DNA of 64,000 bases from Herbiconiux solani NBRC 106740 (GTDB lineage: Bacteria > Actinomycetota > Actinomycetes > Actinomycetales > Microbacteriaceae): assembly GCF_001571005.1 (NCBI RefSeq), contig NZ_BCST01000007.1:1-64000 (forward strand), given 5' to 3'. Both the position numbers and the translations under genes were made by a program. Under the pieces are notes generated by a model. The model searched no databases. It saw only the letters and a program-made list of their open reading frames with translations, and had not been told where the DNA came from. This document shows positions 4,450 through 24,232 of this stretch, in pieces. The first letter of the stretch is position 1. Every line of letters starts with the position of its first letter.

Positions 4450-4473
4450 GCTGAGCGGTCGGCCTCGCCCCGG

Positions 4474-5688: not shown

Positions 5689-5711
5689 GGGCTCGGGGAG
5701 TCGTCGCGCAT
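5679..5711 (-). other. Possible 10-aa leader peptide upstream of ltrA
   Basis: On the minus strand GGAAGG is followed 6 nt later by an ATG opening a 10-codon frame (MRDDSPSPWR) that stops with TGA inside the first codons of ltrA. Its TGA overlaps the in-frame GTG at 5682 as GTGA. This is seen directly; that it is translated is inference. Confidence 0.35.
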
Positions 5712-5787
5712 TGGGTGCCTTCCTTTGGAAGGTCAGCCTGCACGCTCACGGCGGTCGGAGAATCCGTCGTCTGACGTACGGTTCGGG

Positions 5788-6555: not shown

Positions 6556-6567
6556 CCTGAGTTCCCC

Positions 6568-8213: not shown

Positions 8214-8235
8214 GATGGTCTCCTTTGTAATCATC

Positions 8236-8256
8236 ACATTATCACTTAGGTAATGT
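8236..8256. promoter_or_regulatory. Candidate TetR operator / promoter region
   Basis: An AT-rich island in GC-rich DNA holding the inverted repeat ACATTA-N9-TAATGT, just upstream of the GTG of the membrane protein gene. It is the only obvious dyad before the operon that encodes the TetR regulator at 6568. Binding is inferred. Confidence 0.5.
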
Positions 8257-8310
8257 ATCAATGCATAACGTAGAGAGAGACCGGACTATTCCCGCCCGAC
8301 GCGACCGGCG

Positions 8311-8913
8311 TCAGAACTGGATGAGGTCCCGCCCGGCCAGCGGCCCGCCCGGGAACTGATGGAGCCGCCCGCCGTCGCGGAGCGAGCCGAGGTCGATCGC
8401 TTCGAACCCGAGCGCCGTGACGAACTGCCCGACGGCCGCCTTCGCATCCGCGTCGTCGCCCGAGAAGAAGATCACCCTCGTGCCCTGACCCACCTGAGGT
8501 GAGCTGCCGAGAACGGCCGGGCTGAGGGTGTTGAAGGCCTTGATCACCCGTGCCCCCGGAGCGTGCGTGGCCACGATCTCGCTCGAGGTCGAGTCGCCCA
8601 GGTCGAAGGGCACGAAGGTCGGCGCCTCGATCGGGTTCGTGGTGTCGATGAGGATCTTGCCGGTCCAGCTGTCCACCTGCCCGAGGGCTTCGGGAACGTG
8701 ACTCCAGGGCACGGACACGACGACGATGTCCTCCTCGCTCGCGGCCTGGGCGGTTCCGGCGACCGCCGATCCGCCGATCCGGCCCGCGAGCTCCTGAAGC
8801 GACTCCGGTCCGCGGCTGTTGCTGAGGGTGATCCGGTCGATGCCGGCCGCTGCCGCCCGAGTCGCGATCGCGGTGGCGATGGCTCCGGCGCCGATCAGTC
8901 CGAGTGTCGTCAT
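8311..8913 (-). CDS. NADPH-dependent F420 reductase-like Rossmann oxidoreductase
   Basis: A 200-residue protein with the dinucleotide-binding motif GLIGAGAIATAIA at the N-terminus, an Asn-Ser-Arg-Gly-Pro stretch that probably reads the NADP phosphate, and a VIKAFNTL motif typical of the F420 reductase / NADP-oxidoreductase coenzyme-binding family. It could shuttle electrons between NADP and F420 or another carrier. ATG 8913 was preferred over 8919 because AGGGA lies 5 nt before it. One of three related genes in the window (also 11261 and 27603). Divergent from the ABC exporter at 9099. Confidence 0.8.
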   Translation of the reverse strand: MTTLGLIGAGAIATAIATRAAAAGIDRITLSNSRGPESLQELAGRIGGSAVAGTAQAASEEDIVVVSVPWSHVPEALGQVDSWTGKILIDTTNPIEAPTFVPFDLGDSTSSEIVATHAPGARVIKAFNTLSPAVLGSSPQVGQGTRVIFFSGDDADAKAAVGQFVTALGFEAIDLGSLRDGGRLHQFPGGPLAGRDLIQF

Positions 8914-9050
8914 GGTCATCCCTAGGGGGTCGTGGTGCTTCGTGTGAGCTGGCCCGGCGAGAGTGCAGCGGGTCAGTGACGAAGATCCCGCACCGCGCCC
9001 AGCCGCGCCATACGTCAACTCACGGATGTGCCCGGGTGCCCTTTCCGCGA

Positions 9051-9062
9051 TGCTGATCAGCA
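9051..9062. promoter_or_regulatory. Perfect palindrome before the ABC exporter genes
   Basis: The 12-bp perfect palindrome TGCTGATCAGCA lies in the divergent region between the Rossmann reductase and the ABC ATPase, 37 bp before the ATPase start. It is a candidate operator; no adjacent regulator gene points to its ligand. Confidence 0.35.
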
Positions 9063-9098
9063 CGGGCCTTTCCGGTTCGAGACCCCAGGAGACACGCA

Positions 9099-9863
9099 AT
9101 GCAGAAATCAGCCGGCAGCACGGATGGCGGTCTGCTGCTCGAGGCGCAGAACCTCACGAAGGCCTACCCCGCGGCGGACGGCTCATCGGTCGAGGTCCTG
9201 CGCGATGTCTCCCTCACCGTGGGTCAGGGCGAATTCGTCGCCATCGTCGGGCCGAGCGGATCGGGCAAGTCGACGCTGCTGTACTGCCTCGCCGGGCTGG
9301 AGCCCTACACCTCCGGCAGGGTGCTCCTCCGTGGAAGGCAGCTCGACCAGCTCGCGCCCAAGGCGCTCGCCGCGATCCGGCGCGACGAGGTGGGCTTCGT
9401 GTTCCAGTCGTTCAACCTCATCCCGTCGCTCACCGCTCACCAGAACGTGGCGCTGCCCGCACGACTCGCGCACCGGGCCGTCTCCGCATCCGCCGTCGAC
9501 GAGGTGCTCGCCTCGGTCGGGCTGCAGGGCCGTGAGGGATTCCGCCCCGGACAGCTCTCGGGCGGCCAGCAGCAGCGCGTCGCGATCGCCCGGGTTCTGG
9601 CGGCGAGCCCGTCGCTCGTGTTCGCCGACGAGCCGACCGGGGCCCTCGACACCCAGGCGGGTGCCGCGGTGCTCGAGCTGCTCCGCCGCGTCGCCGGGGG
9701 AGAGCGCTCGGTCGTGATGGTCACTCACGACCTCGAGGCGGCCGCGCGGGCCGACCGCGTGCTCGTGCTGCGCGACGGGATGGTGCACCGCGAACTGCTG
9801 CGCCCCACCGCGAGCGAGGTGCTCGAGGCGCTGACCGCGGCGGCGGATGAGGCGTCGCGATGA
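9099..9863 (+). CDS. ABC transporter ATP-binding protein (MacB/LolD type)
   Basis: A 254-residue ATPase with Walker [10 protein letters not shown] (51-59), Q-loop region [11 protein letters not shown], signature LSGGQQQR (about 154-161), Walker B LVFADEPT and H-loop VTHD. The sequence type matches ATPases that pair with FtsX-like permeases to export peptides or lipids, or to work as mechanotransmission pumps. CAGGAGA precedes the ATG. Its last codons overlap the permease start (ATGA), so the two are translationally coupled. Confidence 0.93.
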
Positions 9864-11203
9864 TCCGGCTGGTCTTCCGCGATCTGGTGACCAACGTGCC
9901 CATCTGGCTCGGGGCGCTCGTCGTCACTGCAGCCGCGGGTGCGGCCGTCTCGGTCGCGGCCGGCCTCATCACCTCGGGTCTCGGACTCGACTTCGTGTAT
10001 CTGGCGGGGCTCACGACCCTCGCGTCGATCTCCACCGTGCTGACGATCATCTCGATCGTCGCCGTCCTGGGCACGGTCGCGCGCTTGACGGTCGACCTGC
10101 AGCGCCGAAGCTATGCGCTCTGGCAGCTCGTGGGCGTCTCGGCGGCGCGGGTCACGTGGATCGTGCGGGCACAGCTGACCATCGTCGCCCTGCTCGGGTC
10201 GGCGCTCGGCACGCTCATCGCGGCCGCGTTCATCCCCGCCATCCTCCGCTTCGGGCTCTCGGATTCGTCCGGCCTGCAGGAGATCGAGCCCCGAACCCAG
10301 CCGATCGCCCAGCTCATCGTCATCCTGTTCGTCACCGCGGTCGTCGTGCTGGGAGGCCTGAAGGCGTCGAGACGCGCTGGGCAGGTGCGCGCCATCGAGG
10401 TGCTTCGGGATGCCGACAGGGGAGCGGCCCGGATGGGGGTCGCGCGGTGGATCCTGCTCGCGCTCACCCTGGCTCTGGCGCTCCTCTCGACCTGGAGCGT
10501 CGGCAAGAGCGCGGGCGGCGGCGCCGGGCAGCTCCTGCTCATCGGCCCTCTCTACACGGCGGTCGCGGTCTCGGCGATCCCGCTCGTCGCACCTCCCTTG
10601 CTGCGGGGGTGGACGAAGGTCATCCCCGATCGGTTCTCGAGCGCGTGGTTCCTGGCGCGCAACGCGGCCTCGTTCAGCGTGGGCCGCAGCACGGCCACGA
10701 TCAGCGCGCTCGTCGTCACGATCGCCCTGCCCGGCAGCTTCTACGCCGCGTTCACCACGAACGGCAACTTCGTGACGGCATCCACCGGCGAGTCCATGGG
10801 AGCCCTTGGGCCCGGCAGCTTCCTCATCCTGCTCGGCGGCCCGCTGCTGGTGTCTCTGGCCGGAGCGACGGCGACCGTGCTGATGGCGACCCGCACCCGT
10901 GAGCAGGAGACGGCGCTGGTGCAGGCCGCCGGTGGTGGTCGTGGGCTGGTGCTGCTGCGGGCGACGTGGGAGGCGGTCATCCTCGTCGTGACGGCGGCCC
11001 TCATCTCCGTGGGCGTGCAGCTCGTGACGGGTGTGGGAATGGCGCTCAGTCTCAGCCGCATCACCGCGACGGTGCCGTCGTTCGGGTTCGGGCCGGCGGC
11101 GATCGCGGCGGCCGTCTGCATCCTCGCGGTCACGGCGGCCAGTGCGCTGCCCGTGGCCTCGGCCTTGCGTCGCCCGGTCAGGGCCGTGCTCGCGGCGGAG
11201 TGA
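9860..11203 (+). CDS. FtsX-like ABC transporter permease
   Basis: A 447-residue membrane protein with two blocks of membrane helices (N-terminal and C-terminal) in the FtsX/MacB arrangement and an RSYALWQLVGVSAARV-type cytoplasmic loop that contacts the ATPase. It overlaps the ATPase gene by 4 nt. The pair resembles bacitracin-type or lipoprotein-type exporters, but no two-component system is nearby, so the substrate cannot be predicted. Confidence 0.87.
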   Translation: MIRLVFRDLVTNVPIWLGALVVTAAAGAAVSVAAGLITSGLGLDFVYLAGLTTLASISTVLTIISIVAVLGTVARLTVDLQRRSYALWQLVGVSAARVTWIVRAQLTIVALLGSALGTLIAAAFIPAILRFGLSDSSGLQEIEPRTQPIAQLIVILFVTAVVVLGGLKASRRAGQVRAIEVLRDADRGAARMGVARWILLALTLALALLSTWSVGKSAGGGAGQLLLIGPLYTAVAVSAIPLVAPPLLRGWTKVIPDRFSSAWFLARNAASFSVGRSTATISALVVTIALPGSFYAAFTTNGNFVTASTGESMGALGPGSFLILLGGPLLVSLAGATATVLMATRTREQETALVQAAGGGRGLVLLRATWEAVILVVTAALISVGVQLVTGVGMALSLSRITATVPSFGFGPAAIAAAVCILAVTAASALPVASALRRPVRAVLAAE

Positions 11204-11260
11204 GCCGGCCTCGCTGCGTTACTCGAACATCCTGATTCGACAACAAGAAAGGACACCACC

Positions 11261-11959
11261 ATGTCAGTCATCGCCGTAATCGGTACCGGTCGGGTAGGGC
11301 TCGCTTTCGCCGAGGCCGCGGTCGCAGCCGGGCATCAGGTCGTTCTGGCCAACTCGCGGGGCCCCGAGACGCTGACGGATGCCGTCGCGACGCTCGGCGC
11401 GTCGGCGACGGCCGACACCGTCGAGGGCTCGGCGGCCCGGGCCGACCTCGTGCTGCTCGCCGTGCCGCTCCACAGCTACGCCGACCTCCCGCCGGCGGCG
11501 CTGAACGGTCGCATCGTGATGGATGCGGGCAACTACTACACCGACTGGTCGGGTCACATCCAGGAGCTCGACGACGAGACCACGACCACGTCGGAGCGCT
11601 TTCAGTCCCTCTTCCCGGCGGCTCGGGTGGTCAAGGCGTTCAACAGCATCTACGCCGAGGACATCGCAGCCGATGCGCGGCCGGGTGGCGCAGCGGTGCG
11701 CGCGCTCCCGGTCGCGAGTGACGATGCTGCGGCGAAAGAGGTCGTCACGCAGCTCATCGAGAGCATCGGCTACGAAGTCGTGGATGCGGGCCCCCTCAGC
11801 GAGGGCTGGCGCTTCCAGCGCGGCACGGCGGCGTATGTGGTGCCGCTGACCCGCGCCGAGTTGGTCGAGGCGCTGGCGCAGGCGCGGCGGTACCGCGACA
11901 TGGCGTCGAGCGACGTGACGACGGCGCGGACGCACCAGGTGCCGGGGAGTGACGCGTAG
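11261..11959 (+). CDS. NAD(P)-binding F420 reductase-like oxidoreductase
   Basis: A 232-residue Rossmann protein: GTGRVGLAFAEAA near the N-terminus, then LANSRGPETL and RVVKAFNSIYAED, the same signature as the gene at 8311 but with a longer C-terminus. AAGAAAGGA lies before the ATG. It follows the permease by 57 nt and may belong to the same transcript. Substrate unknown. Confidence 0.8.
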   Translation: MSVIAVIGTGRVGLAFAEAAVAAGHQVVLANSRGPETLTDAVATLGASATADTVEGSAARADLVLLAVPLHSYADLPPAALNGRIVMDAGNYYTDWSGHIQELDDETTTTSERFQSLFPAARVVKAFNSIYAEDIAADARPGGAAVRALPVASDDAAAKEVVTQLIESIGYEVVDAGPLSEGWRFQRGTAAYVVPLTRAELVEALAQARRYRDMASSDVTTARTHQVPGSDA

Positions 11960-12050
11960 CGGGTGGGTGCTCTTCCCGGCGCCATCGCCTCGCCAGTACC
12001 CTGACAACGCACCGGCGAACCACTCCGCCCGCGTCGAAGGAGAGCAACGG

Positions 12051-12626
12051 ATGAGACCCCTGCGCTACGGAATCAACGTCACCCTAGACGGTTGCGTGCA
12101 TCACGAGGCGGGCATCGCCCCCGACGAAGAGTCGATGCGCTTCTGGACCGCCCAGATCGCCCGAGCGGATGCGGTGCTCTATGGCCGTGAGACCTACCAG
12201 ATGATGGAGTCGGCTTGGCGCCGGCCGGCCTCGGGTGCGTGGCCTGACTGGATGACCGAGCGGGACATCCCCTTCGCCGAAACCCTCGACGCAGCGAAGA
12301 AGTACGTCGTCTCGAGCACCTTGCCCGAGGTCGACTGGAACGCCGAGCTCGTGCGCGGCGACCTGGAGCAGGCGGTGCGAAGCCTCAAGGGAGAGCCGGG
12401 GGAGGGCCTGTCCGTCGGCGGAGTCACGTTGCCGCTGGCCCTGGCCGACCTCGGCCTGATCGACGAGTACGCGTTCGTCATCCATCCGGTGATCGCAGGG
12501 CGCGGCCCGACCCTGTTTGCAGGCCTCCACGAGAGGCTGAAGCTCGAGCTCATTGATCGCCAGGAGTTCCGGTCTGGTGCCGTGGCGCTGATCTATCGTC
12601 CCGCAGGCGGCGGACTGGCTACCTAG
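12051..12626 (+). CDS. Dihydrofolate reductase-family (RibD C-terminal-like) protein
   Basis: A 191-residue protein with the RibD/DHFR fold: LRYGINVTLDG at the N-terminus, DAVLYGRETYQMM, KYVVSSTL, and a C-terminal GGVTLPLALADLGLIDEYAF plus HPVIAGRGPTLF. The family reduces pteridine- or pyrimidine-like substrates with NADPH; no specific reaction can be assigned. The start was set at ATG 12051 after GAAGGAGA; the frame open further upstream has no ribosome-binding site. Confidence 0.87.
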   Translation: MRPLRYGINVTLDGCVHHEAGIAPDEESMRFWTAQIARADAVLYGRETYQMMESAWRRPASGAWPDWMTERDIPFAETLDAAKKYVVSSTLPEVDWNAELVRGDLEQAVRSLKGEPGEGLSVGGVTLPLALADLGLIDEYAFVIHPVIAGRGPTLFAGLHERLKLELIDRQEFRSGAVALIYRPAGGGLAT

Positions 12627-12682
12627 CGGAATGCGCCGGCCGTCACCAACCGAAACGCACGTCCCAGCGGTAGCCTCGTTTC

Positions 12683-12907
12683 ATGTCTCTGCTGGCTCGC
12701 ATCGTCGTAAACCCGGAGGTCGTGCACGGCCGGCCGGCCGTTCGCGGCACCCGCGTCCGGGTGACCGATGTGCTTTCGCTTCTCGCGGCGGGTGCGTCCG
12801 AGGCCGAAATTCTCGATGACTACCCGTACCTGACGGCGTACGACATCCGGGCCTGCCTCGCCTATGCGGCCGCGCAGGCCGACCACCCGATCCTGCTCGC
12901 GTCTTAG
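12683..12907 (+). CDS. DUF433-family antitoxin
   Basis: A 74-residue DUF433 protein with the characteristic VHGRPAVRGTRVRVTDVL and the C-terminal DYPYLTAYDIRACLAYAA. DUF433 proteins are antitoxins usually paired with DUF5615 PIN-like toxins. A -10 box TAGCCT (12671-12676) lies 6 nt before the ATG, so the mRNA is probably leaderless. The toxin gene expected next is only a stub (12911-12982). Confidence 0.85.
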   Translation: MSLLARIVVNPEVVHGRPAVRGTRVRVTDVLSLLAAGASEAEILDDYPYLTAYDIRACLAYAAAQADHPILLAS

Positions 12908-12910
12908 TTC

Positions 12911-12982
12911 GTGCGTTTCCTCGTCGACGCTCAGCTGCCGCCGGCGATGATCGAGGCCGGTGACCTCGTCGAACTCCGCTGA
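12911..12982 (+). pseudogene. Internally deleted DUF5615 toxin
   Basis: Three nt after the antitoxin stop, a GTG opens a 23-codon frame. It begins MRFLVDAQLPPA, the exact N-terminal signature of DUF5615 PIN-like toxins (about 110 residues), and ends with EAGDLVELR, which resembles their usual C-terminus. The middle, including most catalytic acidic residues, is missing, and the frame is kept across the junction. Seen directly: the two ends and the short length; the deletion is inferred from family length. Confidence 0.7.
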
Positions 12983-13048
12983 GCAATATCGCGGCGGTAA
13001 CGGGTCTCATCGACCCGCACGGTGCGAACCCAGGCGTTTAGAGCCACC

Positions 13049-13393
13049 TCAGCGCCCCCGCTCCTCCAGAAACGCACTCACCTGCCGATGCGTCTCGGTG
13101 AGTCGCTCGATCCGCTCCGCCAGCCCCGCCCGCACCTGCACGAGCTGTTGCGCGAGCGCGTCGTGCGCATCCGCCGGCGCCTCCCCGGTGCAGGCCAGCA
13201 CCGACACCACGACCTCGCGCGGAAAGTCCATGCCGAAGAGCAAGTGGATGATCTCGGCACGTTCCACCGTCGAGTCGTCGTAGTCGCGATACCCGTTCGA
13301 CTCGCGGCGAGCAGAGATGAGCCCGTGCTGCTCGTAGTACCGCAGCGATCGCGCGCTCACACCGCTGCGCCGGCTGACCTCGCCGATCTTCAT
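13049..13393 (-). CDS. MerR-family transcriptional regulator
   Basis: A 114-residue MerR protein with the HTH MKIGEVSRRSGVSARSLRYYEQHGLI at the extreme N-terminus and a coiled-coil dimer helix at the C-terminus. There are no clustered Cys residues for metal sensing; the single Cys (about residue 68) does not make a SoxR-type cluster. It is divergent from the esterase at 13475, with a classic long-spacer MerR promoter between them. Confidence 0.92.
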   Translation of the reverse strand: MKIGEVSRRSGVSARSLRYYEQHGLISARRESNGYRDYDDSTVERAEIIHLLFGMDFPREVVVSVLACTGEAPADAHDALAQQLVQVRAGLAERIERLTETHRQVSAFLEERGR

Positions 13394-13400
13394 CGTGCGT

Positions 13401-13431
13401 TTGACCTTGACATGATGTCAGAGTCTAGCGT
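13401..13431 (+). promoter_or_regulatory. MerR-type promoter with 19-bp spacer and central dyad
   Basis: TTGACC (13401-13406) and TAGCGT (13426-13431) are separated by 19 bp, the over-long spacer typical of MerR-controlled promoters. Inside it lies the perfect dyad TGACAT-G-ATGTCA (13408-13420), flanked by further complementary GAC/GTC. It reads toward the esterase gene. Confidence 0.75.
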
Positions 13432-13474
13432 GACGGTGTTCGGGCGAGATCCGCCGGAACACGAAGGATGTCTG

Positions 13475-14353
13475 ATGCGATCAACTGTCACGGCCGCCGG
13501 CCGAACCCGCTCGTTCACGGTGATCGGGGAGCCCGACGGTGCCGAAGACCGCGCCCTCGTGCTGGTCTTCCACGGCTCGAAGCAGGACGGTGAGGTCCAC
13601 CGCCGTTTCACGGGAGGCGCCCTCGACCGTCTCGCGACTGAAAATCGTGCGGTAGTCGTTTACCTCGACGGCTACCGCGGCAACTGGAACGACGCCCGCG
13701 CCGAGAGTTCCTTCCCAGCCCGCCTCGAGCAGGTGGATGACGTCGCGTTCGCGCGTGCCGTGGTCGACTCCGTGCGCCGATCCCACCGCGTCGACGTGCG
13801 CCGGGTCGTCGGCGTCGGCTACTCCAACGGCGGCCAGATGGTCTTCCGCCTCATCCACGACGCACCGGATCTCCTGACGGGCGCGGTCGTCGTGGCAGCG
13901 ACCATGCCCGATCGGGACGGCTTCCTCGGCCCCTTCTCGGAGACGACGAAGCACCCCATCCCCGTCACTCTCGTGGCCGGCACAGCGGATCGCATCGTTC
14001 CCTACAAGGGCGGCCGGATGGCGTGGTGGGCGCGTGCGATATTCAAGGTCGGGGGAGTGGCGCTCTCCGCGCCGGCCACGGCCGAGTACTTCGCTCGTCG
14101 CAATGGCGTCACCGCCGTCCCCACGGTCGTGGACGTCCCGGCATCGCCCGGCATGCGCCGCCGCCCGCGGACGGAGGAGACAACGTACCGCGAGCCGGGC
14201 CGCCCGCCCGTCACCTTTTACACGGTGCACGGCGGCGGCCACACCGTTCCGGCGGCGAAACCGGCGCCCGCCGTTCTTGGACGAACGGGGGCAGGTCGCC
14301 GCATCGACGACATCGTTCTCGACACCGTGGGCGCACTCAACCAATCTGCGTGA
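13475..14353 (+). CDS. Polyhydroxybutyrate depolymerase-like / LpqC-type esterase
   Basis: A 292-residue alpha/beta hydrolase of the esterase-PHB-depolymerase family: LVLVFHGSKQDGE (oxyanion region), nucleophile elbow GYSNGG, GTADRIVPYKGG with the acidic residue, and HGGGHTVP with the catalytic His. No signal peptide is seen, so it is probably cytoplasmic. The start was set at ATG 13475 after AAGGA; the frame open upstream runs through the merR region and is not coding. It is the evident target of the divergent MerR regulator. Confidence 0.82.
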   Translation: MRSTVTAAGRTRSFTVIGEPDGAEDRALVLVFHGSKQDGEVHRRFTGGALDRLATENRAVVVYLDGYRGNWNDARAESSFPARLEQVDDVAFARAVVDSVRRSHRVDVRRVVGVGYSNGGQMVFRLIHDAPDLLTGAVVVAATMPDRDGFLGPFSETTKHPIPVTLVAGTADRIVPYKGGRMAWWARAIFKVGGVALSAPATAEYFARRNGVTAVPTVVDVPASPGMRRRPRTEETTYREPGRPPVTFYTVHGGGHTVPAAKPAPAVLGRTGAGRRIDDIVLDTVGALNQSA

Positions 14354-15153: not shown

Positions 15154-15267
15154 GGTGCCCTCCTGTGGCGAGGGTACCAGCGGACGCTCGTGCTACGTCG
15201 AGAAGGAAAAGCGCTGTCGCGTCTCGGCTATTCACCCACGTTGAACGTCGGTCCGACCGCCACTCTC

Positions 15268-15681
15268 CTATCTGCTCAAGTCGGCTCGTTCGCGTCGGAA
15301 TGATTGCCCGGACCATCTCCAAAGGGGTCGGGCCGTGAGAAGAATGAGCACCGCAAACAGGCTCTGACTGATCACGCCGAACAACGAGAGTCCGCCGACC
15401 ATAACGAAGACGGTCCAGTTCACCGCGATGTCGGCGATGATCACGGCGATGCCGAGCACGATGCCGGAGCGCCGTCGGAAGATGATCAGCCCGGCGGTGG
15501 CCGGATCCAGGATCGTCAGCGACACCCAGAACAGCCGGACGCCGGAAGGGAAGTCGCTGTAGGCATTCAAGCCGCTGACGATCAGATCCGCCGTGTGAGT
15601 GGTTGTTCCCACGAGGAAGCCGAGCACCCACACGACTTGGAATACTCTGAGCGCTCGCGCTGATGCGGCGGGAGCGATCAC
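15268..15681 (-). CDS. Four-helix membrane protein, unknown function
   Basis: A 137-residue hydrophobic protein with four predicted membrane segments (about residues 12-33, 46-65, 72-95, 98-117) and charged ends. No family motif was recognised. The GTG start at 15681 lacks a ribosome-binding site, but TAACAT sits exactly 6 nt upstream, fitting a leaderless mRNA. Confidence 0.65.
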   Translation of the reverse strand: MIAPAASARALRVFQVVWVLGFLVGTTTHTADLIVSGLNAYSDFPSGVRLFWVSLTILDPATAGLIIFRRRSGIVLGIAVIIADIAVNWTVFVMVGGLSLFGVISQSLFAVLILLTARPLWRWSGQSFRRERADLSR

Positions 15682-15724
15682 GCGCTCATGTTACTGACCC
15701 GGATGGTGCCGCCGAGTCCTTCTT

Positions 15725-15883
15725 TTAGTCCACGAAAGCGTCGAACGTCTCCTTGATCCAGAGGTCGTCGGCGCAGTCCTCTGAGCAGGCGCGGTGGTCG
15801 TAGACCATCTCGCTGCGGGGCACCCGGATGCCGCATTGCCGGCAGCGCCGGAGCCGGCCGCTGAACCGCTCGTGCACACTCAC
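15725..15883 (-). CDS. Small zinc-ribbon protein
   Basis: A 52-residue protein with CRQCGIRVP and, after a 14-residue gap, CSEDCADDLW, giving two Cys-x2/3-Cys knuckles that should bind one zinc ion. The acidic tail ends KETFDAFVD. Its GTG overlaps the stop of the RHH gene upstream (GTGA), so it is the second gene of a two-gene operon and may be the effector or partner of that DNA-binding protein. No known toxin family was recognised. Confidence 0.6.
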   Translation of the reverse strand: MSVHERFSGRLRRCRQCGIRVPRSEMVYDHRACSEDCADDLWIKETFDAFVD

Positions 15884-16026
15884 AGCGGCACCGCCCCGAC
15901 GTACTTGCGCAGGGCCGCGCAGACCACTGCATTTATGTCCTCGCCTCGTGCCGCGGCAATAAGACGAGCCGTCCGTTCGAGCTGGTCGGGAACCCCGACG
16001 ATCAGCTCTATTTTGCTGGCTGTCAT
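15880..16026 (-). CDS. 48-aa ribbon-helix-helix-like protein
   Basis: A very short gene: MTASKIELIVGVPDQLERTA begins with a beta-strand-like stretch followed by two helices, the layout of Arc/CopG-type dimeric DNA-binding proteins. A -35 TTGTCT and -10 TAGAAT separated by 17 bp lie directly upstream, with 6 nt between the -10 and the ATG, so translation is likely leaderless. It overlaps the zinc-ribbon gene and faces another RHH gene (16107) across a perfect palindrome. Confidence 0.6.
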   Translation of the reverse strand: MTASKIELIVGVPDQLERTARLIAAARGEDINAVVCAALRKYVGAVPL

Positions 16027-16032
16027 AGAGCA

Positions 16033-16061
16033 ATTCTAGAGGGTGTGGCCACACCAGACAA
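16033..16061 (-). promoter_or_regulatory. Promoter with 14-bp palindromic operator
   Basis: On the minus strand TTGTCT (16061-16056) and TAGAAT (16038-16033) have a 17-bp spacer. The spacer contains the perfect palindrome GGTGTGGCCACACC (16042-16055), placed to block the promoter when bound. On the plus side TAAAAT (16065-16070) could be the -10 of the divergent RHH gene, so one operator may serve both. Confidence 0.7.
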
Positions 16062-16106
16062 GTGTAAAATGATGATTGCTCGTTCGGTTTCTGAGAGACT
16101 GACGAC

Positions 16107-16313
16107 GTGCCGAATCAGCCTAAGACACCCAAGCGAGGGTTTCGCATTCCTACTGATCTCTACGAAGCCGCCCAGGCAAGGGCCGCGAGTGAAGGGCGGA
16201 CAGTCAGTGATGTCGTGCGTGACGCGCTCACTCGCTACGTACAGGATGTGACCGACTCGGGAATGGGGAAACAAGACTCCAATCGATCTGCGTGGAGTGG
16301 CTCCCCGTCGTGA
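16107..16313 (+). CDS. CopG/Arc-type ribbon-helix-helix protein
   Basis: A 68-residue protein. GFRIPTDLYEAAQARAASEG followed by RTVSDVVRDALTRYV is a textbook strand-helix-helix RHH motif; the C-terminal 20 residues are polar and probably disordered. Such proteins act as autorepressors or antitoxins. It starts with GTG and is divergent from the other RHH gene at 16026. No toxin follows on its strand; the next gene is on the opposite strand. Confidence 0.75.
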   Translation: MPNQPKTPKRGFRIPTDLYEAAQARAASEGRTVSDVVRDALTRYVQDVTDSGMGKQDSNRSAWSGSPS

Positions 16314-16411
16314 GTGAACGTGGTCGGCGCCTTAGGCAGTACCGCCTTCCAACGCATTCCAGGATCGCCAACCCCACAATGGCCTCATCACGGATCACTG
16401 GACCCTGAGCG

Positions 16412-17416
16412 TCAGCGGGGTGGCTTCCTTCGCTCTTCCAACCCCAACACTTCTACGGTTCCCTCTCCGATGATCCGAGTCTCATGGCCCGCGGTTTCTC
16501 CTCGCCACCGCACATGCAGGTTCCAGCGCGCTGACATTTCGCTGAAGTCCACATCGTCTCCGAAGCCTTCGTCGATGATGAGGATCGCAGCGTCGATGTC
16601 TGCGATCGCTTCTACGCTGAGCTCATATATCTCTGAGCCATAGCGCTTCTTTACGTCTGCTGTCTGGTCCAGGAGATCTACCCGCCCCACGCGCCGTACG
16701 TCAGCATGGTCTGGGCCGGGAGGGCTCCAGCGTGTGATATTCAACCCCGGGAGACCGTCTTTGATCAGGGTTTCAATCTCCATGGGATGGATGTGAAGGC
16801 TACTGAAATCGAACTGGCCACTCTCGTATTCGCCGGGGAGTTCCAAACTGGCGAAGGACCGCAGCACAGTTAGCTCTGCGCCGGTCTCACGCCGAAGTTC
16901 CGCTGTGAGATCGCTACTTCGCTTTGTGAAAACACTGTCGTCTGACACCAGGACCAAATTTTCGAATGGCGGTTCGTCTACTTGTTCAAGGGCGGTGAGC
17001 CACAGCAACGTGTCTCTATACCCACCACCACTCTCATCGAACGGTGCCAGTCGGTTAATTGCTCGCTCGGTCATATCGATATGGGTGCGATCGGGCGGTT
17101 CCGCGATTAGGAACCCGATCTCGTGCAGGCGGGTGTTCAGGATCGATTCGTATTGGTCAACTTCATCGGCATAAACCCGGAGTAACGACTCCGCAGCCGC
17201 CTTCGCACGGTTCGTCGATTTGCGGATTACGCCCTTTACCTGCCGGATTTTATCCTCGTGGTCGCGGCGATACCCGCCGATAGCCTCGAGTCGAGCAACT
17301 TCTGGCAGGACAAGCCGCAAGCGGTCTGCATCGACGGCATCTTTCGCGACCCGCCACTTACGATCACGGAGGATCGCATCCTTCATAATGACGTTGGCGT
17401 CAACGATGACAAGCAT
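16412..17416 (-). CDS. PIN-like (DUF4935-type) domain protein
   Basis: A 334-residue protein. The N-terminal 190 residues show a PIN RNase arrangement with four spaced acids: D6 (IVDANVIM), E39 (LPEVARLE), D135 (GYRDTLLW) and D159/D160 (VSDDSVF). The C-terminal 140 residues form a separate domain of unknown type. PIN proteins cut RNA; the larger DUF4935-type ones occur in defence islands. No antitoxin partner is adjacent. Base composition is clearly less GC-rich than the flanks. GGGGGA precedes the ATG. Confidence 0.7.
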   Translation of the reverse strand: MLVIVDANVIMKDAILRDRKWRVAKDAVDADRLRLVLPEVARLEAIGGYRRDHEDKIRQVKGVIRKSTNRAKAAAESLLRVYADEVDQYESILNTRLHEIGFLIAEPPDRTHIDMTERAINRLAPFDESGGGYRDTLLWLTALEQVDEPPFENLVLVSDDSVFTKRSSDLTAELRRETGAELTVLRSFASLELPGEYESGQFDFSSLHIHPMEIETLIKDGLPGLNITRWSPPGPDHADVRRVGRVDLLDQTADVKKRYGSEIYELSVEAIADIDAAILIIDEGFGDDVDFSEMSARWNLHVRWRGETAGHETRIIGEGTVEVLGLEERRKPPR

Positions 17417-17838
17417 TCATCCCCCACGGATTCACCCTTGGCTACATCACAACTTGCGTTCGAGGTCGGGCGACGGCGTGCCTCTCGCATTCAAGATTAG
17501 CCCTGGGGCTCTTTGTCAAATGTAATGGCTGGCCTCTGCGAATCGGCATTCCATTCTGGGCACGCGCTCACGCCGACGCTACGGACGACTCCGCAAGCTA
17601 CAGCAACTAGTCTGAAGTGTCGCTGAGGATGGTCTTCCCGGCATGACTGAACTCTTGCATGCGTCTAGTGCAACGAGGATGCATATACTGCGCTATCCGC
17701 ACCAGTCCCCTCCCTCGATATGTTCAAACTCTCGGGTGCGCGGCGCGCCGGCCACTTGGCGCTCAAACATCGGGTCCTTATTAGTCGGACGGACGGTTCG
17801 TTGAAACGGCGTGGTGAGCGAGGCAGTAGCTTTGGGAC
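17417..17838. other. 422-bp divergent intergenic region
   Basis: AT-richer non-coding DNA between the PIN gene and the ATPase gene, without a convincing ORF. TATACT at 17684-17689 could be a -10 box. TAGCTT (17827-17832) lies 6 nt before the ATPase ATG and fits a leaderless start. TGCATGC and TGCATA repeats occur near 17657-17686. Confidence 0.45.
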
Positions 17839-19239
17839 ATGCTTACGCGTATTGAAGTCAACGGGTTCAAAAACTTGTTCGACATTGCGGTGGACTTCGG
17901 ACCATACACGTGCATCGCTGGCCCAAACGCACTTGGTAAATCCAACCTGTTTGATGCGATTGAATTTCTTTCGCTGATCATGGACTACCCGTTCATGGAG
18001 GCTGCGCAGCAGATTCGCTCGGCCGGTAGTCGTATGGGTGACCCGCGCACACTGTTTTGGGTGGGGGGCGTCGAGCCGCCTCCGCTTATGACGATTGCAG
18101 CGGAGATGATAGTTACAGGCGTAGTTCACGACGACTTTGGGCAAGAAGCGAAGGCGACGAGCACTTTTCTTCGATACGAACTGACTCTTGAGTACGCACC
18201 TCCTACGGATGCTGGCCCAATCCAGATGGGTGCTATTCGGTTAGTTCGGGAAGACCTCAACTACATAACGCAATCCAAAGCTGCGACAAGAATTCGTTGG
18301 AAGAACAACGCCACGAAGTTCAGACAGCGCGTCATCACAAATGATCGGAAGGGCACCGGCTACATCTCTACAGGGGGGGACGGTGCCTTCCAAGTCCATC
18401 AGGACGGAGGCAGTCGCGGTCAGCCTCGTCGGTCAGCGGTAGCGCCGCGCACGGTCTTGTCGACCATCAACACGTCGGATGATCCAACCGCGCTCGCGGC
18501 GCGGCGTGAGATGCAGCAGTGGCGAAACCTCGCGCTTGAGCCGTCAGCGATGCGTGCCCCCGATTCCGTGATGGGTACTTCGGCGATTGGGTCAGATGGC
18601 TCCCACCTCGCAGCAGCACTCTTTCGAATGGCTGACCAAGGCAAGCAATTGGATGTCTATGCAGGAGTTGCTGCGACAGCATCTGCGTTAGTAGATGTTC
18701 GGGATGTGGGTGTGGACTTCGACCCAAAACGCGACCTCTTGACTCTCGAAGCTCAGATCGGGAATGGGCCACTTTTGCCGTCGCGGGTGCTGTCTGATGG
18801 AACGATGCGGTTCCTTGCACTATCCGTAATAGAAGCTGATCCCGCTTTTGGTGGAGTGATCTGCATGGAAGAGCCTGAGAACGGAATTCACCCGGCGAAG
18901 ATCGAATCAATGGTGACGCTCCTCCGGGATCTTGCTGTTGACCCTCAAGAAGAGCCCGGAACGGACAATCCCCTTCGCCAGGTGATTGTCAACACTCACT
19001 CGCCGCGCTTTGTAGTTTTCCAGCACGACGACGACATGTTGCTTGCCGTGCCTCGTAGCGTCGTAATCGAGGGCGAGACGAGGCAAACAATCAAATTCGC
19101 ACCGTTGTGGGACACGTGGCGAGCGGACGCATCCGGCGAGGGCGTGTCTAAGGGCCTGATCGGTGACTATCTCACAGCCCCAGACGATGCGCCGATGATG
19201 CTCGATTTTCCGGGCCGCGAACTCGGAGAGATTGACTGA
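17839..19239 (+). CDS. SMC/Rad50-like ABC ATPase (AAA_21 type), defence-associated
   Basis: A 466-residue ATPase of the OLD/AAA_21 class. Walker A GPNALGKSN is at residues 29-37; a long middle region is followed by the signature-like LSDGTMRFLALSVI, Walker B VICMEEPENGIHP and H-switch VNTHSPRF. There is no C-terminal TOPRIM domain; that function is carried by the next gene, directly adjacent. Such split ATPase + TOPRIM pairs are known from AbiL-, Rlo- and PARIS-type phage defence, where the ATPase senses infection and releases the effector. Low-GC codon use suggests transfer. Confidence 0.82.
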   Translation: MLTRIEVNGFKNLFDIAVDFGPYTCIAGPNALGKSNLFDAIEFLSLIMDYPFMEAAQQIRSAGSRMGDPRTLFWVGGVEPPPLMTIAAEMIVTGVVHDDFGQEAKATSTFLRYELTLEYAPPTDAGPIQMGAIRLVREDLNYITQSKAATRIRWKNNATKFRQRVITNDRKGTGYISTGGDGAFQVHQDGGSRGQPRRSAVAPRTVLSTINTSDDPTALAARREMQQWRNLALEPSAMRAPDSVMGTSAIGSDGSHLAAALFRMADQGKQLDVYAGVAATASALVDVRDVGVDFDPKRDLLTLEAQIGNGPLLPSRVLSDGTMRFLALSVIEADPAFGGVICMEEPENGIHPAKIESMVTLLRDLAVDPQEEPGTDNPLRQVIVNTHSPRFVVFQHDDDMLLAVPRSVVIEGETRQTIKFAPLWDTWRADASGEGVSKGLIGDYLTAPDDAPMMLDFPGRELGEID

Positions 19240-19869
19240 ATGACCGACCTCCAGTACGCGCTCATTCGTGAGGGCACCTCAGACGATGGCCTGATCCCGC
19301 ACATTTCAGCGCTCTTGCTGAGGGCGGGGGCATCCGCCGTAATCGGTGCAGCGCGTCAATATAAGGGCTCAACTAGAGAGCGCCTCAGCCAGTTGCTTGC
19401 CGAGCCGAAGCCGCCGGCCCTGATCTTCGTCCACCGCGACTCCGATTCCGCCGATCCCTCGTCGAGACATCAGGAAATCGCCGCGGCTGCTTCCGCGCTC
19501 GGGTGTGTCGAACGAGTGATACCAGTGGTTCCAGTGCAAGAACTTGAAGCATGGTTGTTAACAGATGAAGGCTCGATCAGGGCGGTGGTTGGACGGCCAA
19601 GCGGTCGAACACCAATGGGCCTACCGGCTCTGCGAAACATTGAGACGACATCGAGCCCAAAGGAAGTCCTCCAGAACGCCTGCCTTATTGCGAGCGAGAA
19701 GACTGGCGTCCGGCGCAAGAAGGAGCGGGGACAGTTCAATGTTCGACGCGCAAGCCTCTTGGAACGAATTGACATCGATGGTGCGGTGACTTCGCTGGCG
19801 TCATGGCAGCGCTTCGTCGGTGACCTCACTACTGCGGCCGTTCGGGCACTCGAAAATGATGCCACTTGA
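19240..19869 (+). CDS. DUF4276-like TOPRIM protein, effector partner of the ATPase
   Basis: A 209-residue protein starting immediately after the ATPase stop (TGAATG). It shows a TOPRIM-like pattern: an early acid in IREGTSDDG (about residue 9), then the acid cluster FVHRDSDSAD (about 66-75) and PVQELEAWLLTDE, typical of DUF4276/AbiLii-like proteins. TOPRIM effectors are metal-dependent nucleases. It is the expected toxic half of the two-gene system. Which defence subtype is represented cannot be decided by eye. Confidence 0.72.
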   Translation: MTDLQYALIREGTSDDGLIPHISALLLRAGASAVIGAARQYKGSTRERLSQLLAEPKPPALIFVHRDSDSADPSSRHQEIAAAASALGCVERVIPVVPVQELEAWLLTDEGSIRAVVGRPSGRTPMGLPALRNIETTSSPKEVLQNACLIASEKTGVRRKKERGQFNVRRASLLERIDIDGAVTSLASWQRFVGDLTTAAVRALENDAT

Positions 19870-20246
19870 AGCGACGTATTTCCTCGTCACGCTAACCTGC
19901 CATGCGCGATCAGGGCGGCGAGTCTAAATGATGATCGCGACCAGAGTATGCGGAGACTCCCGCTAAGTCGCTGCGCTGTTTGATGCGGTAAGCGACCAGC
20001 TTTCAAGCGCCACGAGAACGCAGTGATGGGGTGAGGCCCGCGAGCTGTTTGCCGCGGGCAGCCCGGCGCGCCGGCACGTGGGCGAAGCGCGGGGCTTCAC
20101 GCAGGTGGCCCCATTCGGTACTGCTTCGTCAAGCAACGATTGATTGACTTGGAACTTGAATCATGCTTGTCAGAACCATCCGGCGACGACTACTCACGCT
20201 CCGAATGCGTGTGCCGCGGGAGATGTCGCTTGTCTCCCGCGCAGGT
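19870..20246. other. Intergenic stretch with a gene relic
   Basis: About 380 bp between the TOPRIM gene and a membrane protein gene on the other strand. No intact gene is present. It contains the nucleotidyltransferase relic at about 19966-20143; the remainder shows nothing I can interpret. Confidence 0.5.
19966..20143 (+). pseudogene. Decayed fragment of an HTH-MNT nucleotidyltransferase (MntA-like) gene
   Basis: Reading in two frames, the DNA encodes SFQAPRERSDGVRP and then RHVGEARGFTQVAPFG. These align with SYQVARERTDGVRP and RHVAEEQGFTQVAMFG in the intact gene at 34741. A one-base deletion (near 20040) separates the frames, an in-frame TAA lies upstream (about 19989), and the GS...DxD catalytic part is missing. 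It is therefore a broken relative of the antitoxin at 34741, either an old duplicate or the remains of another module. Confidence 0.65.
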
Positions 20247-21143
20247 TTACTTCGGCTTCTCGTCCACACCAGGCATGTCGGCGACCAGTTTTAGCGTCGG
20301 AGACTGAGTAACTCCGGCAATGATGCTCTGGAACATGACTTCCATAGCCGCCATCTTGGTTTTAGCCGCACTCTGGGTCAAGACGACCGCGCCGATGAAG
20401 GCGAAGAGTTCAATTAGCAGTGCTCCGATGCCAAAAAACTCGTAAGTCCGATAGGTCAGCGCGGCACCGACGGCGACGAGCGGCATGCCAATTCTTCCTC
20501 GGAAGGATGCCTCGGCATCCAGGCGGTCGTATTTGTCGTAAAGGTCCTTATTTGCAGCCTGGAGCGACACTTCTGCGAGGTCGACTTCGTCGATGACGCG
20601 CTGGCGCAGAAGTGGTAGAAGGCGTTCGCTGGTCCATTGCCAGAAACCCTCCTGCATGTACTCATTGACTGTTATGTCTTCGAAAGCCGCGATGTCCGAA
20701 GCCTCCGCCTGAAGCTCGCGCTGGGCTTCCGATGTCCAGTGTGCTCTCTCTTCGGCCTTGAGGAGCGGGAAGGGTCTCAGTACCCAGCCCGATGGAACGT
20801 TGCGAGATCTCGCGTCCGTGACCGTTCTCTCTATCAGCTCATCGAGATTCGTTACAGTTGTCGGCTGTAGCTCATCCCTCAGGTCATTGGAGAGTGTAGG
20901 GAATGACTCACCTACGCGTTCGGTCAGAACGCCGATCAGGTAGGCAATAAACGCCAGTGCCGCCCCGACCCCCGCCGGACCAAGCCACCCGGCCACGTCA
21001 TACAGCTGGCTGATGATGCCCACGGAATCTTCCTTGGTCGGGACTAGCGGCCCAAACGCAAGCCACGCAGCAATGAGCCACATTGCACCCACGGCGAGCG
21101 GAACACGGAGCTCCCGGATGCCAGGTAAGAGTGCGGCTAGCAT
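20247..21143 (-). CDS. Membrane protein with cytoplasmic helical domain, unknown
   Basis: A 298-residue protein with two N-terminal membrane helices (about 13-31 and 56-77), a soluble, charged helical domain of about 140 residues (WTSEAQRELQAEASDIAAF and neighbouring helices), and two more hydrophobic segments at about 219-262. AGGGGAA precedes the ATG. Base composition is AT-richer than the core genome. No family was recognised. It is divergent from the nuclease-like gene at 21778, with about 630 bp between. Confidence 0.6.
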   Translation of the reverse strand: MLAALLPGIRELRVPLAVGAMWLIAAWLAFGPLVPTKEDSVGIISQLYDVAGWLGPAGVGAALAFIAYLIGVLTERVGESFPTLSNDLRDELQPTTVTNLDELIERTVTDARSRNVPSGWVLRPFPLLKAEERAHWTSEAQRELQAEASDIAAFEDITVNEYMQEGFWQWTSERLLPLLRQRVIDEVDLAEVSLQAANKDLYDKYDRLDAEASFRGRIGMPLVAVGAALTYRTYEFFGIGALLIELFAFIGAVVLTQSAAKTKMAAMEVMFQSIIAGVTQSPTLKLVADMPGVDEKPK

Positions 21144-21777
21144 CGATTTCCCCTAGAGGAGCTCAGCGCAACTTTCGGAGAATATTCCAGTACGCCCCAG
21201 TTTGCTTGCCCTGATTGTGGATGCACCCCGCATTGAGATCGAAAGCGGTCGTCGGCCACTGCAAAGTTCATGTTAATGGGCACCTCGCGGTAGGGGGGAG
21301 GAGGACGCAGGAGTGAAATCTTGCGCCTCGTTCACGCCGAGATTCGCAAGCGGTCTGCCAATGATGCAACAGTGCGAGATGTCTGAGCGGTATTGCCGCC
21401 CCAGCCAAAGGCACAGGGGCAAAATTTGGTTGAATCGCGGGCCCTCAGGACGAGCTCCAGAGCTCTCGAAATTCTCGGTGATACCGGGGTGCGCGGGCTT
21501 GCGGCACTCGATCGGCAGCGCCGGAACTGCGGCCACTCCAGCGCTGCCGCGAGGATGCCACGACGTGACGTGGTGGCTGTCGAGGTCGCCCGTTGCGGCC
21601 CATTCGTCAGGAGCACTGACGACTTAGGCGCGTATTTCTGGACGTGCTGGCTAGAAATCTTGAACGAAGGGGCGCCAGCGAAGGCTCGCCTACTCCGTAT
21701 AGGCAGCTAGGGTCGAGCTGGTGAGTGATGAATTCGTATCACCAAGGGGTTGGTAGGTCGGCGCAAGCAGGGATTGA
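21144..21777. other. 634-bp intergenic region
   Basis: Short frames are open here but none has a ribosome-binding site and coherent composition. One contains a TetR-like stretch (see 21438-21560). The right end holds the inverted repeat GTGAT-N8-ATCAC (21725-21742) about 35 bp before the next gene, a possible operator. Confidence 0.4.
21438..21560 (+). pseudogene. Possible relic of a TetR HTH domain
   Basis: One frame reads SRALEILGDTGVRGL, which matches the first helices of TetR-type regulators (consensus-like ALEILGDTGVRGLTH), but the expected recognition helix does not follow in the same frame. A frameshifted relic is the simplest reading; chance similarity is possible. Confidence 0.3.
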
Positions 21778-23253
21778 TTGGCGCTAATGGCAGAACTATC
21801 GCGGGTTGGGAGACCTCCCACGTATCATGCAGTCATCACGGCAGCCAAGCAGTTCAGGCCTGAGCTGCTCCTTCCCCTCCTCGCGAGCGCGAGTGCCGCG
21901 AATGACCCATTGGTGGGTGCCGGCCGGGAGTGGGTGCGAACTCAGCCCTGGGTCTATGCGGCTATCGCTCGGGAAAGCATCCTTCATGGATCGCTGTCGA
22001 GTCCGAATGTGCCCACTGGGCGGACCGTCGAGCGTCTTCGCCAGATCTTCATCGATTCCTACGATGATCTCCATGACCCGACTCTCTCGGCTATCATCGG
22101 GCCGCTGATGTATGAGCAGTTCCCCTACCAGCTCTCACCTGGCGAAGAATATGCCCGCATTCAAGCCCTGTACGGGGACCCGAATCTCGGAGAGGTGCCA
22201 CCGTGGGGGGATATCCTCGGTCAGTCGCTAACGGACGCGCTGAGGGCGAACATAGTCATCAGCGCATGGATACACCATCACGATGGACAATTCCGACTGT
22301 CGATCCTCGATGACCCTGAGTATTCGGAGGTGTGGGAGAAGATTGCTTCCCGCGAATCCGTCGAAGTTCACGCCCGTTACCTGACGGCGACGATCGCAGA
22401 AGCCAAAGGGCTTGCCGCTGTGGCTCCCGTGCTACCGCGTAGTCTTCAGCGATACCGCTACAACCCTCTTTGGCAGAAGCCGCTAATCGATCTCGGCGAT
22501 ACGGGAGTTTGGGCTCCAGACAGCATGCTACTTCGAGGGGCAATTGCACCCGGTCGCCTGTACTACGCAGCAGCAAGCCAGTGGAAAGCGAACTTCGCAA
22601 ACGAGCTCGGCCATCGCACGGAGCTCTACGTCGGCGAGCACCTGAGGATCGTCGCCGGCCAAAACGTCGAGCCGGAGATCGAATACGCCGTTGGGAAGAG
22701 ATCACTGAAAACGGTTGATTGGATCTGGTCTGCCGACAGCGCAACGATACTAGTCGAGAGCAAATCGGCCCGGATGAGCGTCGGTGCGCAGGCGGGGCTG
22801 GACCTGCAGCGCGAAGCCGATCTCCTTCGGAAAGCACACATGCAGATCGATTCCACCGTGGAGGCGATCCATGGCGGGCGCCACCCGGAACTGGCTCACC
22901 TGTCGGCAGAGAAGCCCTTTCTGGGCATGATCGTTACCTCTGAGCCGTTCTACCTCGGCAACGCCGAGCTTCCCGAATATGGGGCCATAGGACAGACACC
23001 CCGTTTAGTTCTATCTCTACGCGAGCTCGAACAACTGGTGTGCTTCCCTGCAGAACTTGTCGTCGCCCACCTCCTGCCCATACTCGACGACCCGGACCAG
23101 CGACGCTGGTCCTTTAACAACACGCTCACTCAGCTGCGAAATTCGGCATCACCAATCAGCAACCCGATTCTTCTAAAAGCAACGGAAGAATGCGCCTTCC
23201 TCGAACTCCAGAACATGACCAAGAAGGCCCTTGGTGCGGGCTCTTCCCCCTGA
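21778..23253 (+). CDS. PD-(D/E)XK nuclease-like protein, large, unknown family
   Basis: A 491-residue protein. The C-terminal half contains a likely PD-(D/E)XK core: a helix with Glu (HRTELYVGEHL), then TVDWIW with the Asp, and ILVESKSARMS, where E-x-K follows a beta strand. The N-terminal 280 residues are of unknown type. The start is uncertain: TTG 21778 lies 4 nt after AGGGA, ATG 21787 lies 13 nt after it. Standalone nucleases with a large unknown domain are typical of defence islands. The end abuts a truncated transporter, so this is probably an insertion boundary. Confidence 0.6.
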   Translation: MALMAELSRVGRPPTYHAVITAAKQFRPELLLPLLASASAANDPLVGAGREWVRTQPWVYAAIARESILHGSLSSPNVPTGRTVERLRQIFIDSYDDLHDPTLSAIIGPLMYEQFPYQLSPGEEYARIQALYGDPNLGEVPPWGDILGQSLTDALRANIVISAWIHHHDGQFRLSILDDPEYSEVWEKIASRESVEVHARYLTATIAEAKGLAAVAPVLPRSLQRYRYNPLWQKPLIDLGDTGVWAPDSMLLRGAIAPGRLYYAAASQWKANFANELGHRTELYVGEHLRIVAGQNVEPEIEYAVGKRSLKTVDWIWSADSATILVESKSARMSVGAQAGLDLQREADLLRKAHMQIDSTVEAIHGGRHPELAHLSAEKPFLGMIVTSEPFYLGNAELPEYGAIGQTPRLVLSLRELEQLVCFPAELVVAHLLPILDDPDQRRWSFNNTLTQLRNSASPISNPILLKATEECAFLELQNMTKKALGAGSSP

Positions 23254-23575
23254 CGTTCGTGGTTCGTCCGCTCGGCTCCTGGCCCTTTGGCCGACTCGCC
23301 GACCCGCGAGACAGGCAACGGGCACTCGCTGCGGCGGTCACGATGATGTCGGCCGGATCCGTCGCTCTCGCGGTTGCCTCGATCGAACGCGCGGTCTGGG
23401 CGTGGTCCGCTTTGATCCTCGTGGTCGTTCAGCCTGCTCCAGGCGTCGCCACCGGGGGTGAGTACGCGGCCGACACGGAGTTGTGTTCGGTGCCGGCCAC
23501 GCGAGGCGACCGCCCATTCTTCGCCCCGCTCCAGGCCGCCACGATCGTCGGCGGACTCGTGCTCGAGAGGAACGC
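23251..23575 (+). pseudogene. Truncated MHS-family (MFS) transporter
   Basis: In one frame the DNA encodes TFVVRPLGSWPFGRLAD, then ALAAAVTMMSAGSVAL and QPAPGVATGGEYAAD. These are hallmark segments of metabolite:H+ symporters of the proline/betaine type (usual length about 430 residues). Helix 1 and the start are missing because the nuclease-like gene ends exactly where the similarity begins, and the similarity stops after ATIVGGLVLE. Only about 105 residues remain. Confidence 0.75.
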
Positions 23576-23648: not shown

Positions 23649-23873
23649 ATGACCATGAAGCTGAGTGTGAGCCTCTCCGAGAGCGACGTCGAGTACATCG
23701 ACGAGCTCGCGCGCGCTCGATCGGGCAACCGGTCGGCTGCCATTCACGATCTCGTTCGGATTGCTCGAGAGCGCGCAGCGGTCAGCGATTACGCTCTGGC
23801 GAACGATGAGTGGATCGACTCCGGCGAGGCTCGTGCGTGGAAGACGGCCGAGGCCGACGGCCTCGGGGCATGA
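23649..23873 (+). CDS. RHH antitoxin (MazE-type) of a MazEF module
   Basis: A 74-residue ribbon-helix-helix protein: MKLSVSLSESDVEYIDELA and SGNRSAAIHDLVRIARERA form the DNA-binding part, and the C-terminal DEWIDSGEARAWKTAEADG is the likely toxin-neutralising tail. Its stop overlaps the toxin ATG (ATGA). A second ATG two codons in (23655) is a possible alternative start. Confidence 0.85.
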   Translation: MTMKLSVSLSESDVEYIDELARARSGNRSAAIHDLVRIARERAAVSDYALANDEWIDSGEARAWKTAEADGLGA

Positions 23874-24232
23874 GGAGAGGAGACGTGGTGGCCGTTCGCC
23901 TCGACCCGGCTGAAGCCGGCGAGGCGTCGAAAACCCGACCCTGCCTCGTGGTCAGCAACGACGGCGCCAACGAGGCGGCGACCGTGATGGGCCGGGGCAC
24001 GATCACCGTCGTGCCGTTGACCACCAACGTGACAAACGCGCGCGGGGAGTTTCAGGTGCTCGTGTCAGACGGCGACGCGCTCGAGTCGATGGGCCTGACG
24101 AGTGTGTCGAAGGTGCAGGCCGAACAGGTGCGCACGGTGTCGGTCGAGCGACTCGCCGGCGCCCGCGGGGCCGCGCCCGGCTGGGTGATGCAGCAGGTCG
24201 ACCACGCGCTGCGCTTTCACCTGTCGCTCTAG
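23870..24232 (+). CDS. MazF/PemK-family mRNA interferase toxin
   Basis: A 120-residue toxin with the MazF core: MRRGDVVAVRLDPAEAGE, KTRPCLVVSND, ITVVPLTTNV and LTSVSKVQAEQVRTV. MazF proteins cut mRNA at short sequence motifs; the Arg in KTRP and the Thr/Ser in TSVSK are active-site positions in the family. The start was set at the ATGA overlap with the antitoxin; a longer frame reading into the antitoxin gene is open but not coding. The module closes the right side of the island. Confidence 0.9.
   Translation: MRRGDVVAVRLDPAEAGEASKTRPCLVVSNDGANEAATVMGRGTITVVPLTTNVTNARGEFQVLVSDGDALESMGLTSVSKVQAEQVRTVSVERLAGARGAAPGWVMQQVDHALRFHLSL

Follow-up and report, generated by a model that had tools for sequence, protein, structure and literature searches.

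A GapS1-like protein with a predicted PD-(D/E)XK nuclease core in a low-GC block of the Herbiconiux solani chromosome

GapS1 is described as an anti-phage protein of Gamma-Mobile-Trio elements (Mahata et al. 2024, cited in PMC12774648), and GAPS1 reportedly protects Klebsiella from many phages (PMC12908700). The Klebsiella phage ST437-OXA245phi4.1 has been named as the carrier of a GAPS1-like protein (PMC12774648). Its gp49, which scores 393 bits against the NCBIfam GapS1 model NF047931 (curated cut-off, 320 bits), served as our reference GapS1, and five further bona fide GapS1 proteins (429–510 bits) brought the set to six (393–510 bits). A second system of relevance here, Upx, is listed under nuclease activity (PMC10855318).

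We compared these systems with one gene of the window, which is the whole 64,000-nucleotide stretch of DNA that was analysed (positions 1 to 64,000 of contig NZ_BCST01000007.1, Herbiconiux solani NBRC 106740). The gene and the parts of its product, referred to below as the window protein, were located as follows.

21778–23253, + strand: GapS1-like gene, 491 aa (ORF list; NCBIfam NF047931; homologues in Actinomycetota)
21778–22482, + strand: N-terminal domain, residues 1–235, almost all-helical (AlphaFold2 model, conservation, GapS1 alignment, Upx match)
22549–23037, + strand: predicted PD-(D/E)XK core, residues 258–420, with E282, E300, D314, E327-x-K329 and Q356 (AlphaFold2 secondary structure; structural matches to N.BspD6I, FokI and HindIII; weak Pfam NERD matches in relatives)
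22717–22719, + strand: D314 in TVDWIW, presumed catalytic Asp (invariant, 34/34 relatives)
22756–22764, + strand: E327-x-K329 in ILVESKSAR, presumed catalytic motif (K in 34/34, E or D in 34/34)
23038–23253, + strand: C-terminal helical tail (AlphaFold2 model; last five codons are flanking DNA common to relatives)

The reading frame is listed with a TTG start (21778), but translation more probably begins at the in-frame ATG at 21787; the helix residue E282 is encoded at 22621–22623. The window protein matched no Pfam family, the gathering score of NERD (PF08378) not being reached, and no PADLOC model, including that of Shedu SduA (DUF4263), which was also not among the families hitting the 34 relatives.

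The sole family match of the window protein was NF047931 (41 bits, E 1.1e-10, residues 51–397), at a score far below the 320-bit cut-off. All 28 aligned proteins matched the same model, and relatives from the branch, scored singly, reached 35–82 bits, none of them near the cut-off. Because direct BLASTP against the Klebsiella GapS1 was not significant (E 0.51), the relation to GapS1 rests on profiles. Profile-profile alignment (hhalign) of the window branch with the six bona fide GapS1 proteins gave E 2.9e-18 over 425 co-linear columns, so that the homology extends along the whole architecture, N-terminal domain and nuclease core alike. The catalytic D ... (D/E)-x-K and the downstream Q of GapS1 were present, the alignment pairing D314/E327-x-K329/Q356 with GapS1 D316/D329-x-K331/Q362, and it likewise paired Q114/Q118 with GapS1 Q118/Q122. 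Both proteins are products of a single gene, of about 490–530 aa, and helices and strands follow one another in one order in the AlphaFold2 models of the window protein and of the prophage GapS1 (pLDDT 84.0 for the latter). In contrast to this shared layout, identity in the alignment was only about 11–18%, and 10 of the 11 GapS1 proteins carry D-x-K where the window protein has E-x-K. A tree separated the actinobacterial-type and GapS1 sets by one branch (support 100/99), which places the window branch in a clan apart from GapS1 proper, and the window protein adjoined copies from Agromyces and Microbacterium. Finer placements are unsure, because long branches were flagged and a cyanobacterial row (L011) fell on the actinobacterial side. 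By sequence, the window protein is a GapS1-like sister branch rather than a member of NF047931, a label chosen because the curated cut-off was tested and lay well above its score.

The residues presumed to be catalytic were then read across relatives. These were recovered from 24 plasmid records, 33 genome loci and a few genomes from order- and class-level searches; they are about 470–500 aa long, mostly 23–43% identical to the window protein, and align with it from end to end. Among 28 aligned proteins, D314, K329, E300 and Q356 were invariant. When homologues were combined with bona fide GapS1 members (34 proteins), the invariant columns were Q114, R127, P235, D314, K329 and Q356, the Q, R, P, D, K and Q positions common to GapS1 and the window branch; position 327 held only E or D and position 282 only E or Q, and P57 and W58 of the N-terminal domain were near-invariant. 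The nuclease motif is a pattern far beyond chance, since D314, K329 and Q356 do not vary and E327 and E282 vary so narrowly across 34 diverse relatives.

The AlphaFold2 model of the window protein, built on the 28-row alignment, reached pLDDT 84.7 and pTM 0.85. Its elements (H258–296, E302–305, E308–311, E315–318, E323–329, H343–366 and E381–387) formed an alpha-beta-beta-beta-alpha-beta core, the order typical of PD-(D/E)XK enzymes; D314 borders strand 315–318, and E327/K329 fall within the next strand, 323–329. When the model was compared with the PDB by VIA-align, the best matches of the core included N.BspD6I (Z 11.6 over 179 residues), FokI (Z 9.0 over 156 residues) and HindIII (Z 8.4). 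The secondary structure and these structural matches to PD-(D/E)XK enzymes indicate that the modelled core has the PD-(D/E)XK layout. The type IIS nicking and restriction enzymes N.BspD6I and FokI have this catalytic domain in common with the window model, but they neither matched it over its full length nor showed sequence similarity at the search thresholds. Can2, Card1, McrC, HamA and NucC (VIA Z about 5–8) were not read as kin, because their similarity is that of the common PD-(D/E)XK core. Sequence and profile searches of the PDB with the window protein returned nothing significant, and the BFVD search returned only partial, weak matches to the core. Several relatives gave weak NERD matches over the core (best E 1.2e-4; one relative at 22.9 bits against a gathering score of 22.1), unlike the window protein itself, and some are annotated as nuclease-related domain proteins; other marginal matches in relatives were to DUF4143 (weak), PDC-S01 and Csx1.

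These results bear directly on the original prediction, which had read a PD-(D/E)XK core from a helix Glu, the Asp in TVDWIW and the E-x-K in ILVESKSAR. Both the conservation in 34 relatives and the order of the modelled core agree with that reading, and the checks it had proposed, a profile-profile search and a structure prediction, gave the GapS1 relation (E 2.9e-18) and a predicted PD-(D/E)XK fold. Its statement that the first 280 residues match nothing does not hold: they are co-linear with the N-terminal part of GapS1 and lie within a full-length match to Upx.

Upx (9wuf, a cryo-EM structure) was the sole full-length PDB match of the window model, and it was also the only one of the GapS1 model. 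By VIA-align, window residues 14–482 were placed on Upx chain residues 35–525 (Z 11.1, 360 aligned, 5.6 A) and GapS1 residues 13–511 on 33–525 (Z 11.2, 373 aligned, 5.0 A), values to be read with the caution that a common arrangement can bring helical proteins to Z 13. Foldseek gave E 1.1e-5 for the window model against Upx, with a modest TM score by query (0.39). Because the core and tail comprise only about 230 residues, more than 100 of the Upx-aligned residues must lie in the N-terminal half. Upx residues about 33–525 are the stretch on which both models were placed; the PDB search found no sequence-profile match between Upx and the window protein, and the Upx chain of 1212 residues continues for about 690 residues beyond the matched part. 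The window protein (491 aa, against about 1200 residues for Upx) is without a C-terminal half of the Upx type. The models suggest a module shared by the window protein, GapS1 and Upx residues about 33–525; such a module is likely but unproven, given the modest TM score and the Z values that helical proteins can reach. In the literature searched, we found no description of a structural link between GapS1 and Upx. Upx was reportedly described as a single-gene defence system by Gao et al. 2020. Tentatively, and with slightly less than even confidence, GapS1, the actinobacterial branch and Upx may form one superfamily of single-gene anti-phage nucleases, in which the N-terminal helical module with its invariant Q and R would be the phage sensor or switch, Upx would be the version with an added second half, and the module would have spread beyond the groups caught by defence-finding models.

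To place the gene in its genomic setting, we analysed the composition of the surrounding DNA and its alignment to other genomes. GC content was 57–60% between 16 and 23 kb, against about 70% around it. In blastn against the same-genus genome G838, positions 15267–16240 and 23237–23565 of the window were 86–88% identical, while the DNA between them differed in the two genomes; from these homologous flanks and the different DNA between them, the block was delimited to about 16241–23236. The features in and beside it are given below.

16241–23236, no strand: low-GC cargo block (composition; blastn against G838 and G833)
16412–17416, − strand: PIN_12 protein by the block's left end (Pfam PF16289, E 5.3e-18)
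17839–19239, + strand: AAA ATPase of HEC-01A type, MAD3-like (PADLOC PDLC04184, E 1.6e-88)
19240–19869, + strand: DUF4276 protein of HEC-01B type (PADLOC PDLC04210, E 1.5e-22; Pfam PF14103, E 1.4e-7)
20247–21143, − strand: 298-aa protein with hydrophobic stretches (no Pfam, NCBIfam or PADLOC family match)
23237–23565, + strand: MFS-type transporter remnant, cut by the right end of the block (88% DNA identity to G838; weak Pfam Sugar_tr)

The GapS1-like gene is the last in the block, whose right end falls within its last five codons. The insertion boundary proposed earlier at this gene is borne out, as homology to the relative's flank resumes at 23237, in the last codons of the reading frame. 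The transporter is intact as a 463-aa open frame in G833. No direct repeats resembling attachment sites were found flanking the block. The insert of G838 at the same site (13.5 kb) carries RmrA-like (E 1.7e-66), SduA-like (E 1.9e-16) and PDC-S06 (E 7.5e-115) genes; the G838 block, at 1874–14030 of locus L099, is also low in GC. The site resembles a defence hotspot whose cargo can be exchanged. Within the window block, the HEC-01A/HEC-01B-type pair (17839–19869) is a candidate two-gene defence system; its ATPase also matched NCBIfam MADS3 (E 1.7e-36, below cut-off) and was absent from 15 other genomes of the genus. The PIN_12 protein, which had no PADLOC match, is probably a ribonuclease. The 298-aa gene separates the ATPase pair from the GapS1-like gene, and the more than 600 bp upstream of the latter (21144–21777) hold no convincing gene, the short overlapping frames on both strands there having no Pfam match. 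The left junction is spanned by an apparent C-terminal portion of a short ribbon-helix-helix antitoxin (DLYEAAQARAASEGRTVSDVVRDALTRYVQD; 16160–16313, + strand), and just outside the block, at 23649–24232 (+ strand), lie genes for an RHH_1 antitoxin (E 2e-5) and, downstream of it, a MazF/PemK toxin (E 4.1e-22). The gene had been said to lie beside other nuclease-like genes, which holds only in part, the neighbours being a PIN-domain gene, the AAA ATPase/DUF4276 pair, an unmatched protein and MazF/RHH.

The distribution and neighbourhoods of the relatives were assessed as well. Plasmids, both linear and circular, carry relatives in Streptomyces, Arthrobacter and Rhodococcus, and the GapS1-like gene was absent from all 15 other genomes of the genus. 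Scanning IMG/VR and GenBank phages with the single window protein yielded no relatives, and the profile search yielded one weak relative (L103, 5001–5939; 28% over residues 113–411), which lies on an IMG/VR contig of 42.7 kb and may be an intermediate carried by a prophage. When the 520 ORFs of 38 loci were clustered, no conserved partner gene emerged, and the only recurring items near relatives were transposases, a terminal helicase, relaxases and near-identical contigs. In a descriptive tally of 112 near neighbours, CBASS-like genes (SAVED-TIR, E1-E2, JAB), TIR, GmrSD and transposase genes occurred 2–3 times each. At six loci, each in a genome of a different actinobacterial genus (L023, L024 and L026–L029; Blastococcus, Humibacillus, Knoellia, Sediminivirga, Ornithinimicrobium and Dietzia), nearly identical GapS1-like genes had similar neighbours and stood beside a large relaxase-like gene; together they would represent a recently spread mobile element.

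The near-full-length family relation, the predicted fold, the invariant presumed catalytic residues, the absence of a conserved partner and the swappable block were all observed, and they make it probable that the window protein works alone as an anti-phage effector like GapS1. That it cleaves DNA, and what its trigger and target would be, we infer from the family relation, the fold, the active site, the stand-alone gene and the hotspot, together with the reported role of GapS1. One polypeptide would combine the helical N-terminal domain (1–235), the PD-(D/E)XK core (258–420) and a short helical tail. Its helical half would act as the infection sensor, restraining the nuclease until a phage-made component is met; the freed nuclease would then cut DNA, with D314 and E327 holding metal ions, K329 helping and E282/E300 nearby. 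The outcome could be direct destruction of phage DNA or arrest of the infected cell. The function of the actinobacterial branch could have drifted from that of GapS1, as is conceivable from the score of 41 against 320 bits and the BLASTP E of 0.51.

The relatives on plasmids, beside relaxases, transposases and terminal helicases, would also fit another role, as a nuclease on plasmids or integrative elements could serve plasmid exclusion or maintenance: it would cut the DNA of incoming plasmids or integrative elements instead of phage DNA, or would aid persistence of its element. We consider this unlikely, as such elements commonly carry defence genes, the family includes GapS1, whose name refers to phage defence, and the window copy sits in the chromosome, with defence genes as the counterpart of its block in G838. 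An association within the block itself was also weighed, in which the window protein would be the nuclease component of the neighbouring HEC-01-type ATPase/DUF4276 system (17839–19869). The two share the block and the strand and are about 1.9 kb apart, and MAD3/MAD4-like proteins belong to a larger defence system; however, the opposite-strand gene at 20247–21143 intervenes and no HEC-01-like gene recurred beside homologues, which makes this reading quite improbable. The last five codons, which come from flanking DNA, might instead mark a fossil, a recent import clipped at the junction (23237) that has lost its function. Yet the frame is intact over 491 codons and aligns end to end, all conserved core residues are kept, and the replaced codons lie in a variable tail of low confidence in the AlphaFold2 model, so loss of function appears very improbable.

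With the stand-alone anti-phage effector of the GapS1 kind as the favoured reading, the original proposal of an undescribed effector stands in part: the protein is effector-like and lies in a defence-type island, but it is not of an undescribed kind, because its N-terminal part aligns with GapS1 and falls within the Upx match. It belongs to a known single-gene defence as a divergent branch that has gone uncounted, filling out a little-studied family rather than founding an entirely new one. Counts of GapS1-type defence are probably too low, at least for Actinomycetota and including Streptomyces plasmids, since PADLOC misses the window protein and no actinobacterial copy whose score was read reaches the NF047931 cut-off. 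If the Upx resemblance is real, two defence systems treated as separate would be joined. Q114, R127 and P235 offer specific positions for learning how a single-protein nuclease senses phage.
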